A stretch of DNA of 64,000 bases, taken from Neocallimastix lanati (nom. inval.). Lineage: Eukaryota; Neocallimastigomycota; Neocallimastigomycetes; Neocallimastigales; Neocallimastigaceae. How positions within the stretch are numbered: the stretch's first letter is position 1; every line of letters starts with the position of its first letter. Where the stretch lies: positions 218,501 through 282,500 of the forward strand of contig JACVTC010000037.1 of the NCBI GenBank assembly GCA_016946835.1, given 5' to 3'. Positions 39,907 through 45,415 of the stretch are shown in pieces. Both the position numbers and the translations under genes were made by a program. Under the pieces are notes generated by a model that saw nothing but the letters and a program-made list of their open reading frames with translations, was not told where the DNA came from and ran no database searches.

Positions 39907-40602
39907 ATATTTAAATTTTCAAAAGCTAAAAAGGCAATTATTTACAAGGAGAATGATTTTGGATTTATTTCAGAAATCAAAAACTTGCAATGATAATTGA
40001 ACAAAAATTCTTGGATGTTTCTTTAGATTCAGAAAAGGATTATGATAATAATATTTATTACTTTATATTGAGTGCTCTTCTTGGCTGGCGTTCAATATAT
40101 TCAAAAATTAAAGTTAATGATGGGGAACAAAGACAATTAGTTGACAATATTTATAAACAAAGTTCAACTTCGTCGACTGTTCCGTATTTTGTGGAGGTTG
40201 CATAGTTTCTAACAAACGTAATACCATTAATTTGTTGATCTTTTAGATTGATAATGAAATGGTATTCCATTGAATCTATTGAATCTACCGTTGCCGAGAG
40301 CGTCGACGTCGAAATGATAAGGCATGGATTTTCACCTCCCGGTGAAAGAACTGATACAGATTTATTAAATAACACTAATACTGAAATTATTACTTGCAAT
40401 AATGGATGTGGTGTTATCATCGATGAATGGGAAAAGTTAGAGGTTATTATTTCTAACGCACTTTTATAATTTTATAATGTATAATATTTTATTTCATATA
40501 TTTTATTTTATTTTATTTTTTTATTTTCATTAAAATCATGTAATTTTATTATTATTATAAAATTAAATAAAGTTTTCTCAAAGTCTAAAATTAAAAAAAA
40601 AA
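39907..40602 (+). mobile_element. LINE copy 2: 5'-truncated 3' end with 33-bp target duplications
   Basis: The coding remnant reads DVSLDSEKDYDNNIYYFILS, then SIYSKIKVNDGEQRQLVDNI and, after in-frame stops near 40203 and 40239, FRLIMKWYSIES ... GVIIDEWEKLEVI. The peptide closely matches LINE copy 3 and is diverged from copy 1. The 3' UTR holds AATAAAG and ends AGTCTAAAATTAAAA. The flanking 33-bp duplications (39874-39906 and 40603-40635) mark a target-primed insertion. Only about 0.7 kb was copied, so the CCHC knuckle and RT are missing. A frameshift also separates the 5'-most codons (about 39910-39990). Dead on arrival. Confidence 0.87.
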
Positions 40603-40787
40603 GGAATATACGTAAATATTAATATATATATATATTTTATTTTTTATAGATATAAATGGATATTGTAATTACATAAAAATTTTTATATATATATATTTAA
40701 TATAATATTAGTATTTTTAATGTAAACATCATTTTTGTTAAATCTAATAATTATATAAATTATATTATTAATAATAATAATAATAAT

Positions 40788-41446
40788 TGTTAGAATATGT
40801 GAAATGTATTTATACTTGTATTGACACATATTGTATTAAAATATATATATAAGTCACATTTATTCATATAAATATATGTTAATTGTATATAGAATTATAT
40901 ATTAGTAATTCTTGAGTTATTCTATCATAAAAAAAAAAAAAAAATAATTTAGACACATATAATGAGTACGCATTTCCCGATATGACCATAACAGATATAA
41001 CTGTTGTTAAGTGTGATATACTAGCATACTAGTACAGCATCGCTCCTCCACCTCCACACGTCGTTACACATTTCTTCTTGGAGCTGAATTCCCTAACATT
41101 TCTATTTATTATCTCCATTAACCACGAGCATTGAAATTGGGAACCAATCATCCCTCCTGTGGGTGTAATCATTAGAGTGTGGACATATTGTCATCAGCGT
41201 CTATGATTAAATTGTAACGTAGTATCATAGGGGCTGGGATCCTATAGGCTGCCAAGGGAAAGCTTTTTGGATACCACCGTAGTTTTATGATACCCCAGGA
41301 TAGAAACCTTGAAGCATATTATATGACCATGTCAGGAATCGAATCAAGGATTCTACAGAACCGATTGAGTCAACACAGCGGCTCCTTTCTTTATCATAAA
41401 ATATATTAGTAAAATTGACATAATTATAAACCATAAATTTCTAACT
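40788..41446 (+). repeat. 5' LTR, interrupted by a 459-bp insertion
   Basis: Starts TGTTAGAATATG. Blocks at 40788-40932 and 41392-41446 together match the right LTR in the same order. The break coincides with a 10-bp duplication of TATCATAAAA, so the LTR was split after it formed. A 7-bp stem, GAATCTC/GAGATTC, lies just downstream at about 41460-41486. Confidence 0.8.
40933..41391 (-). mobile_element. 459-bp SINE-like insertion in the 5' LTR
   Basis: Flanked by TATCATAAAA at 40923-40932 and 41392-41401, a 10-bp target duplication. G+C is visibly higher than anywhere nearby. Read on the minus strand it begins AAGAAAGGAGCCGCTG, then a tRNA-A-box-like TTGACTCAATCGGTT and a B-box-like GATTCGATTCC. 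The two boxes are only about 14 nt apart, so an anticodon arm would be missing. The far end is a T run (A run on plus, about 40933-40944). It also holds an 8-bp inverted pair GTATCATA/TATGATAC. No open frame. The tRNA-headed SINE reading is inference; the discrete insertion with duplications is seen directly. Confidence 0.65.
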
Positions 41447-41990
41447 CGTAATAGATTAAGAATCTCAGTGACTCTCAAGAGATTCTCTGTAAAGATGAGT
41501 TCTTATCCAGACAAAAATTATGTCAAGGGGAAAAAATATTAGGTATAATTAAAAAATCCATATAAAAAGGTAAACATTTTAAAATTTGAAATATTAAATC
41601 TTAATGTTAAATTTAAGAATAAAATTTGTATTTTGAAAGTCAGCAAATTAACAAAATTTATAATAAGAATTTCATAGTTAATAAAAAATATTCAAAATAA
41701 ACAAACCTTTAAAATTTTAAAATAATTCATTAAATTCAAAAATAAACAAGGATTCTAAATTTAAAATAATTTAATTAATTTGGATTTGCTTAGAATATAA
41801 AGGTTGATTTTAAAATAGAAATTAAACAATTCAAGTAAATAAATTGAACTTAAATTATTAAATAATATTTTAAAGTTCATAGTTTAAATCATACAATTAA
41901 TATAAAATTCCTGTTCATTTCCAATATTTAAAAAGCAATATTATCAAATTAAAATTTATCAATAAACTATACAAGATAGTTATAACAAAT

Positions 41991-42371
41991 ATGTCAAAGG
42001 CTACTATAAAGTTAAATAAAGAAACTGGTCTCGGAACTTTAGAATATAATGGAGAAACTTATCAATGCGGTGGAATGCCAGGATTCAATTACCCCAAAGA
42101 TACTACGATAGATACTACTCAAGATGAAGGCAAACCTGATCATGCTAAAGTCAAACAAGAAATGCATTTAAGTGGAGAATTCGTTGACCAAAATGGTAAT
42201 CCTTTTCCAATGCCCTATTCTGTGTCGTGGATAGGTTATAAAGGAGTTTTTATCCATGAAATGGCGCAATTGGAAGGTTCTCATGGATGTATCCACTTAC
42301 TTCCTGGTGATGCTAAAAAGTTTTATGACTCTTTCAATGGAAAAGTAAGAGTTATTTTCAGTTGGATTTAA
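41991..42371 (+). CDS. L,D-transpeptidase (YkuD domain), 126 aa, cargo of the LTR element
   Basis: One intronless 126-aa YkuD catalytic domain and little else. The active-site block is FIHE...EGSHGCIHL, with H89 and the S97-H98-G99-C100 motif; family consensus is SHGC[IV]R, so only the Arg is replaced, by His. A beta-rich N-terminal half (TIKLNKETGLGTLEYNG) fits the fold. No signal peptide, membrane span or LysM/peptidoglycan-binding module. In bacteria this enzyme cross-links or edits peptidoglycan through a Cys thioester. Fungi make no peptidoglycan, so a bacterial origin by transfer is the simplest explanation. It lies in the interior of the LTR-like element on its sense strand. The reading frame is intact despite the clearly diverged LTRs, which hints at retained function. 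Substrate and location unknown. Confidence 0.85.
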   Translation: MSKATIKLNKETGLGTLEYNGETYQCGGMPGFNYPKDTTIDTTQDEGKPDHAKVKQEMHLSGEFVDQNGNPFPMPYSVSWIGYKGVFIHEMAQLEGSHGCIHLLPGDAKKFYDSFNGKVRVIFSWI

Positions 42372-43868
42372 AACAATTCTTGATTCTTAATAATATTGAA
42401 TTACTCATTATGTTAACTAACTACTATTCTATACACACCATTACATTTTTTTTATACATTCAAATAAATTAAGCAAAATTTGAAATATTTTAAAATATGT
42501 TAAATACCATACATTGTAAATATAATGTTACTTATCCTAATAGAATAGTCATATATATAAAATATTAAATTAAAATTCCAATCATATATTTGACCAATAA
42601 AATTGTAAAGTTGAAGTGATAAGTAAATTGAAAAGGACATAATATATGAAATGAACAAATAATTTCAATCATACCAAAATATTCATTTAAATTATCATAC
42701 ATTTAATTCCATATATTCAAAAATTACTATAATAGTTATTAATATAAGAGAAACATAGAATAAGTAAATATCAGTATTAATATATACAATAAAATATATT
42801 CTACTTTAAAAGAGGTTAAACAAAACACATTCATTATATCTACTAGTATTCCAAATAGTAGTAGAATAAACAACATTAATTTACAATTAACTTAGAATTA
42901 ATGTATAATAAATTACTTAATAAATGGAAAAAATTATAATTAACTAGAAGTTAATTAATCTCACAAAATATTGCACAAATTTATAATATATTATTAAACA
43001 GTGAAGCATATATACTTAATTTTATCAGAATATACTTAATAGCTACTTCTTCTCTATAAAAAAGGATATTCGAATGAGGTTGTCACTAAGTACCAACAAA
43101 TATAAGAATAGGTATATTATTATTCATAGATAAAATAGAAATGCATAGCGTGAAATGAGCATATTCTACAACAATTATATTAATTGATTATCTAGCGTGA
43201 AATGAGTATTTTCAATTATATTTAATATAATATCATGATTTAACTTAGCGTGAAATGAGTGTAATCATAGATAATAATAGTAGATGGTGTAAGGCCTTCG
43301 TTAGAAAGGGTTCCATCAATAATGGTATAACATCTTCATAGAAAATATTATATTTAACTCCTCATATTGTCACTTAAGATAATGCGCGCTATAGCTATTG
43401 GTTTTCATTCCAATTAAACGAGCGGGTAGTTCAATATAAAACTGAACTGATAATATTACATAAATACACTTCAGAATACTTTCATGAAAAGTATGGTGCA
43501 ATTATTCATAAATAATATCAAACCCAATTTAAAATTTTCATTTACAAATCAATATATTTTGATTCAAGGAGGAATAATGGTTGTTGAAAATTTATATATA
43601 ACTGACCAAAAAAAAACGCATATCAAAGTTTTTTTATCCATAATAAAATATATAGGTTTTTAAGATGTTTAACCGCAAACATGTCAAATTATAATAGGGT
43701 AATAATATAATTGTTAAAATGAATTAACTAATATATACATTAGAATATAAACTTTAAAATTAATGAAAGTTAAATTATAGCATTTAAAATTAATTAATAG
43801 TTAGAAAAATAGTTCAAGTATACATATTCGTCAGCAAACCAAATTATTCTTTCGGAATAACTAGGTTT
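42372..43868. other. Non-coding interior of the LTR-like element
   Basis: About 1.5 kb without a convincing ORF. It contains three copies of TAGCGTGAAATGAG, and mixed-composition patches at 43270-43450 including GATGG...CCATC and AGTTCA...TGAACT inverted pairs. It may serve packaging or priming of the element; that is inference. Confidence 0.6.
43146..43259 (+). repeat. Three spaced copies of TAGCGTGAAATGAG
   Basis: Perfect 14-mers at 43146-43159, 43193-43206 and 43246-43259, spaced 47 and 53 bp, with unrelated A+T-rich spacers. They lie inside the LTR-like element between the transpeptidase gene and the right LTR. Confidence 0.95.
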
Positions 43869-43877
43869 GAAGGGGAA
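43869..43877 (+). promoter_or_regulatory. Polypurine tract of the LTR-like element
   Basis: GAAGGGGAA directly abuts the TGCTAG start of the right LTR, the place where plus-strand DNA synthesis is primed in LTR retrotransposons. G runs of four are rare in this window. Confidence 0.7.
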
Positions 43878-44088
43878 TGCTAGAATATGTGAAACATATG
43901 AAAATAGTGTTAAATGTATTTATAATGTATTGACACATATTGTATTAAATTGAATGTATAAGCCCGATTTATATATAAAAATACATGTAAATTGTATATA
44001 GAATTATACATTGGTAATTCTTGAGTAACTCTTTTTCATAAAATATATTAATAAAATTGAAATAAATATAAACTATAAATTCCTAACT
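43878..44088 (+). repeat. 3' LTR of the LTR-like element
   Basis: About 211 bp, TGCTAGAATATG...CTAACT, intact relative to the split left copy. It contains a short insertion or duplication (GAAACATATGAAAATAGTG) not in the left LTR. Followed at once by an AAT microsatellite. Confidence 0.8.
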
Positions 44089-44089
44089 C

Positions 44090-44127
<38 letters not shown>

Positions 44128-44861: not shown

Positions 44862-45415
44862 CTAAGAGAATAACTTTATTTAATTTATAATAATAATAAT
44901 AAAATTACATGAATTAAATGAAAAAATAACAAATAAAACACATGAAATAAAATATTATATATTATAAAATTATAAAAGTGCGTTAGAAGCAATAGCCTCT
45001 AACTTTTCCCATTCCTCGATGATAACACCACGTCCATTATTGCGAGTAATAATTTCAGTATTAGTGTTATCAAACGAATCTGTATCTGGAGGTAAAAATC
45101 CATGCCTTATCATTTCGACGTTGACGCTCTTAGCAACGGTAGATTCAATGGAATACAATTTCATCATCAATCTAAAAGATCGACAAATTAATGGTATTAC
45201 ATTTATTAGAAACTTCGCAATCCCCACAAAATATGGAACAGTTGACGAAGTTGAACTTTGTTTAAAAATATTGTCAACTAATTGTCTTTGTTCCCCATCA
45301 TTAACTTTAATTTTTGAATATATTGAACGCCCGCCAAGAAGAGCACTCAATATATAATAATAAAAATTATTATCATAATCCTTCTCTGAATCTAAAGAAA
45401 CATCCAAGGATTAGC
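44823..45415 (-). mobile_element. LINE copy 3: best-preserved 3' end, with 12-bp target duplications
   Basis: Perfect duplications of TAAAATAGTAAT lie at 44811-44822 and 45416-45427. The ORF2 tail (145 codons, 44970-45407) is open throughout: DVSLDSEKDYDNNFYYYILS, SIYSKIKVNDGEQRQLVDNI, FLINVIPLICRSFRLMMKLY, GVIIEEWEKLEAIASNALL. The UTR ends AATAAAG ... AGTCTAAAA and the A tail appears as T at about 44825-44858. It is oriented opposite to LINE copy 2 and very similar to it. 5' truncated, so it carries no RT or endonuclease. The open frame is a fragment of ORF2, not a gene of its own. Confidence 0.9.

Follow-up and report, generated by a model that had tools for sequence, protein, structure and literature searches.

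The window analysed here, a 64,000-nucleotide stretch of the Neocallimastix lanati genome (C301:218501-282500 of a 199-Mb, 762-contig assembly that is very AT-rich, with a GC content of 7.5-38% in 2-kb segments), contains a long terminal repeat (LTR) element whose only recognisable gene encodes a protein of the YkuD, or L,D-transpeptidase, fold. Related direct repeats, a polypurine tract, an intact YkuD open reading frame (ORF) and no gag, reverse transcriptase (RT) or integrase gene had been described here in an earlier note made from the sequence alone, and all of these features are present at 40788-44095. Among stop-to-stop frames of at least 40 amino acids (aa) in C301:257500-264500, the YkuD ORF alone reaches a length of 70 aa within the element, and the same list holds no gag-, RT- or integrase-sized ORF between the LTRs. 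The LTR pair is likewise real, but the left repeat is not the plain 211-bp unit first described, as it is split by 40933-41391 (Table 1). The 459-bp insert is a dispersed repeat with copies genome-wide that are 76-86% identical (genome match lists here and below score the best 40 candidates, of 588 for this repeat, 684 for the right LTR and 87 for the 3′ block), and the TATCATAAAA found on both of its sides is the repeat's own duplication. The insert contains no tRNA and has no Rfam match at E 0.1. With the insert excluded, the two LTRs show 30 differences over 198 aligned sites, which corresponds to a Kimura two-parameter (K2P) distance of 0.17, with three gaps. Both flanks of the element consist of (AAT)n, in which matching 5-bp stretches readily arise, so that the ATAAT duplication is by itself weak evidence; the case for the element rests on its family.

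Table 1. Features of the LTR element and its borders, in window coordinates.
Feature	Position	Strand	Remarks
Target-site duplication ATAAT, left copy	40783..40787	+	within (AAT)n tract
5′ LTR, ends TG..TA, split by 459-bp insertion	40788..41453	+	
Dispersed repeat inside 5′ LTR	40933..41391	.	bordered by TATCATAAAA at 40923-40932 and 41392-41401
Leader	41454..41990	+	first 87 bp 79% identical to leader of C135 copy, plus other short patches; scattered genome matches at 41567-41906
YkuD (L,D-transpeptidase-fold) ORF, 126 codons, intact	41991..42371	+	sole copy in genome
3′ non-coding block common to family	42676..43627	+	genome matches
Three copies of TAGCGTGAAATGAG at 43146, 43193 and 43246	43146..43259	+	motif also in blocks of other copies
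Polypurine tract GAAGGGGAA	43869..43877	+	abuts right LTR
3′ LTR, ends TG..TA, 218 bp	43878..44095	+	
Target-site duplication ATAAT, right copy	44096..44100	+	

The right LTR, used as a query, finds 40 genomic places among the best 40 of its 684 candidates, the next-best copy being 86% identical. The junction between polypurine tract and LTR, with up to three mismatches, occurs at 268 genomic places and the junction between LTR and leader at 680, as against none for the reversed pattern in either case; these counts are totals, with locations for the first 100 places of each. The 3′ block (42676-43627) returns 47 match rows from the best 40 of 87 candidates, with matches longer than 850 bp that are 69-77% identical, and the 14-bp motif TAGCGTGAAATGAG occurs with up to two mismatches at 36 of the 40 loci L032-L071 (three of the four loci without it have no block by BLAST, and one has the first ~350 bp only). 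Copies with paired LTRs lie, besides the window, at L032, L033, L034, C135 (where a nested element interrupts the pair) and L064, and no gag-pol-type ORF is found between the LTRs of the window copy, L032, L033 or L034. The 5-bp flanks match in six of the six LTR pairs examined, the window included. In four pairs they fall within (AAT)n or (ATT)n, making such a match easy, whereas those of L034 (ACTAT) and L064 (ATTTT) do not, and the L034 duplication, ACTAT/ACTAT, is less repetitive than that of the window. Microsatellite tracts of the (AAT)n or (ATT)n type often surround the LTRs of L001-L041 and are a candidate preferred target.

The earlier note had offered as an alternative a chance flanking of the gene by two solo or decayed LTRs; taken more broadly, an ordinary gene would by chance lie between LTRs that are solo or unrelated to each other. 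The LTR is indeed very common, with its 684 candidates, and (AAT)n flanks ease a 5-bp match; against this, the right LTR adjoins its tract, block and leader are internal to the family and stand in the correct order and on the correct strand, and paired LTRs with the same layout recur at L032, L033, L034, C135 and L064. Order, strand and shared internal sequence led us to reject chance flanking, which is very improbable, and positions 40788-44095 are a single LTR-element insertion. Because LTR distances (K2P) are 0.005 at L032, 0.019 at L033, 0.014 at L034 and 0.014 at C135, compared with 0.17 in the window, some family copies are recent and the window copy is old; the value at L064 is 0.178. 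LTR ends are TG..TA in the window and TG..CA at L032, L033 and C135.

Relatives of the window element elsewhere in the genome have the same LTR, the same start of the leader and the same ~950-bp 3′ non-coding block, with different ORFs between them, which upholds the earlier suggestion of an LTR element carrying captured sequence. Several copies of an LTR-YkuD-polypurine tract-LTR arrangement had been sought as support; the order with YkuD is not repeated, and the same order with different cargo recurs. In the window, at L032/L033, at L034 and at L040, the family's leader and its 3′ block enclose an ORF that does not belong to the element. The cargo of L032 and L033 is a 227-aa ORF of secreted type with a signal-like start (two copies, 97% identical), that of L034 is a 352-aa ORF, and that of L040, in C135, is an ADP-ribosyltransferase-like gene interrupted by one or more in-frame stops, with a second piece that matches PF01129 at 33.7 bits (cut-off 22.3). 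This last element (L040/L041, C135:902606-917133) is split by a nested element of ~10 kb that has TGTAAC..GTTACA ends and an ATAAT flank and that matches a chromodomain-integrase pol end at C96.

Comparison of L032 with L034 gives identities of 93% over the first ~600 bp of the leader, 95% in the block, 91% in the tail and 95-96% in the LTRs, while the ORFs are unrelated and identity returns ~55 bp ahead of the block. Since the two copies are 91-96% identical outside the slot and differ in their ORFs, cargo exchange between near-identical copies is directly visible. The segment just before the block is common to L032 and the ADP-ribosyltransferase-like copy (78% identical over 197 bp, and 86% over 111 bp) and in L032 encodes a hydrophobic tail; recombination therefore also seems to have provided different domains with a common tail. 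The 5′ edge of the block is visible in 26 of the 30 loci retrieved by the block, and the slots of these 26 fall into 12 DNA groups (E 1e-10, at least 100 bp), some linked only through a 3′ segment of 110-165 bp and several decayed. One further cargo group, at L054, L055, L058, L065 and others (eight loci), has an ORF of ~107-168 aa with a hydrophobic end adjoining the block; its L065 member has no Pfam match.

The 352-aa cargo has relatives 523 and 468 bp past the junction of LTR and leader at C115 and C490, as well as a 38% identical relative in a 644-aa frame at C752:72373. Two longer proteins, P0105 and P0106, are 37-38% identical to it; P0106 passes the cut-off for SH3_3, whereas the chitin-recognition match present in both falls short of its cut-off. 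In our reading this cargo was captured from a family of host genes, with the C752:72373 frame as its candidate parent.

For YkuD, a late entry into an element already inserted, such that the gene never was retrotransposed cargo, has to be weighed. Nothing else in the genome matches the stretch 41907-42397, and the boundaries of leader and block are not sharp in the window copy, as late entry would allow. The ORF is nevertheless in sense orientation, 537 bp past the LTR and 305 bp before the block, where other cargo ORFs lie at 666-820 and 239-314 bp, and the repeat list has no duplication around it; late entry is thus distinctly unlikely.

The ORF product scores 24.9 bits against PF03734 (YkuD), above the curated cut-off of 23.4, and has the L,D-transpeptidase catalytic fold, with catalytic residues H89 and S97-H98-G99-C100, that is, an (S/T)HGC motif; H89 and C100 are invariant across 44 alignment rows. 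NCBIfam gives only sub-cut-off matches and PHROGs and PADLOC give none. No signal peptide is evident by eye. Its predicted activity is likely to be cleavage or exchange on the stem peptides of bacterial peptidoglycan. YkuD enzymes described in PMC9638812, which include Tlde1a, an L,D-transpeptidase fold serving as an antibacterial type VI secretion system effector, share with it the fold, the SHGC motif and the active-site His and Cys; the present protein differs in being a single 126-aa domain within a eukaryotic mobile element and in having seven residues between His89 and Ser97, not the 14-17 of the printed motif. Tlde1a is absent among the 50 structural-aligner entries listed, which does not exclude likeness. 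For polymorphic toxin systems, a transfer of no fewer than 13 toxin domains to fungi has been reported (PMC3482391, in a portion of text that makes no mention of YkuD). An antibacterial role for the YkuD product is possible given the Tlde1a precedent and such transfers, and it stays a conjecture because the ORF has no evident signal peptide.

That the element spread YkuD in the genome, which the earlier note had considered possible, is not supported: there is a single copy, and its LTRs are 15% diverged. No parental YkuD gene was found in the genome outside the elements, and the PF03734 profile run over the genome gave no match at E 0.001, a search too insensitive to recover even the window copy. 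A protein from another data set (P0001) is 99% identical, and among 103 YkuD relatives, most of which come from contigs without host assignment, the closest with an origin shown are eukaryotic (EukProt P0006 and Streblomastix strix P0025); two bacterially named relatives, P0100 and P0102, are at the weak end, with E about 9e-4. P0001-P0065 form a subfamily of short, signal-less YkuD proteins in eukaryotic and metagenomic data. In 84,980 prokaryote species genomes, scanned twice by pattern, neither a close YkuD member nor this subfamily was confirmed, and four viral-contig scans confirmed no close member either. A phage or viral source was accordingly rejected, there being no phage match in addition. 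A direct passage from a bacterium into the element would agree with the bacterial fold of YkuD, with family matches in 6 of 14 control genomes, all six bacterial, with an L,D-transpeptidase of a Bradyrhizobium plasmid that is 33.6% identical over 88% (plasmid search), and with the known acquisition of bacterial genes by gut fungi (PMC6712302). The eukaryotic origin of the closest assigned relatives, the prokaryote and viral scans and the missing phage match speak against it, and such a passage is unlikely. Of the earlier view of a peptidoglycan enzyme taken from a bacterium, then, the bacterial fold stands and the bacterial source does not find support.

Survival of the reading frame was simulated with 0.085 substitutions per site since insertion, which is half the LTR distance, and with indels calibrated on the three LTR gaps: 20-24% of YkuD frames survive when stops alone are counted, and about 3% with indels. 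The window copy keeps 22 of the 23 columns conserved in 42 relatives, and its codon-position GC is 46/36/24%, compared with 17-22% in the surroundings. Frame survival, conserved columns and codon-position GC favour constraint modestly. As frame and catalytic residues were kept while the LTRs diverged by 15%, the YkuD copy is, on balance, probably maintained by selection and may serve as a host gene whose expression is driven by the LTR. The competing account, in which the element is dead, YkuD is carried along in it neutrally and the frame is intact by luck, accords with the diverged LTRs, the repeat inside one of them, the single YkuD copy, the decay of many other cargo ORFs and the frame survival obtained from stops alone; it accords poorly with the survival obtained with indels, the conserved columns and codon-position GC, and the 99% identical protein in another data set. 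It is a serious contender whose chances we put appreciably below even.

We regard the window copy, with a probability of roughly 0.8, as an old insertion of a non-autonomous LTR element from a family with one exchangeable cargo slot, its YkuD cargo unspread and selection on it favoured. The slot follows a leader of about 0.5-0.8 kb and precedes the non-coding 3′ block, which reaches the polypurine tract. RNA would start in the 5′ LTR, and copying and integration would be supplied in trans by the enzymes of another element, a dependence known from non-autonomous LTR elements that carry NLR genes (PMC5664825). Occasionally the reverse transcriptase would switch template, so that a foreign mRNA or a segment of another copy replaces the cargo and the ends stay; template switching has been described as a capture route for plant LTR elements (PMC13317346). 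The YkuD copy has not been multiplied.

Several points weigh against this reading. Template switching is a route that we infer and have not seen directly, no autonomous helper element was identified, and no TGG primer site follows directly on the 5′ LTR, where a conserved GATTAAGAGTCTC stands instead. The window copy is an outlier, a divergent lone member of the family: its leader matches other copies in short patches only. Several other cargo ORFs are decayed, as neutral passengers would be, and the tests of constraint, based on one gene and a three-gap indel rate, are weak. The long matches of the L032 block to other copies are 86-97% identical and its match to the window copy is 76%.

Self-priming of the element finds no support, as the L032 LTR and leader have no match longer than 7 nt. 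At C96 (L045) a chromodomain-integrase frame and its downstream DNA run straight into the block, and DNA 99.1% identical to it lies nested within the C135 copy, where it continues otherwise; the C96 arrangement may be a chimaeric junction rather than a helper. This join is consistent with a template switch between two elements, and a deletion would look the same.

Upstream of the element in the window is an ammonium-transporter gene. Positions 40006-40558 and 44887-45412, which flank the element, are inverted copies of the end of an unnamed gene (segments 85-93% complementary), and a Pfam search at E 0.1 gives nothing for the right-hand 146-aa frame. The insertion site of the element thus seems to lie between a pair of paralogues arranged tail to tail.

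Large retrotransposon derivatives (LARD) and terminal-repeat retrotransposons in miniature (TRIM) have LTRs, a tract, a non-coding internal block and no gag or pol, but an exchangeable ORF is no part of their definition. The present sizes, 3.3 kb in the window and ~4.1-4.5 kb at L032/L034, lie between these two size classes. Maize Bs1 and other gene-transducing plant LTR elements also carry transduced host segments, with template switching proposed, whereas here one slot holds unrelated single ORFs from copy to copy of a single family, one of them of bacterial fold (PMC13317346). The NLR elements of pepper are alike in having intact genes within LTR elements without gag or pol and in depending on machinery in trans, but they carry mostly one host gene family with parents, while here no YkuD parent was found in the genome and the cargo types are unrelated to each other (PMC5664825). 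The literature searched, in which subscription papers and preprints lay mostly outside coverage, showed no LTR element that carries YkuD and no account of a comparable family in gut fungi.

A broader reading is put forward tentatively and is rather doubtful. It takes the family as an exchangeable cassette with fixed ends, namely LTR, leader, block and in some copies the membrane-tail segment, into which conflict-type domains (YkuD, ADP-ribosyltransferase-like, cysteine-protease-like) would be captured and swapped, sometimes becoming fixed as host genes, with a YkuD subfamily that would be mainly eukaryotic. The ways in which fungi move and diversify foreign or duplicated genes are mostly reconstructed afterwards, and a family in which the ends are constant and the cargo varies offers comparable before-and-after copies within one genome. 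Capture by template switching, reuse of leader and tail, and the passage from mobile cargo to fixed gene are thereby made testable, and the YkuD subfamily seen in eukaryotes raises the question of what role an L,D-transpeptidase fold may have in cells without peptidoglycan.
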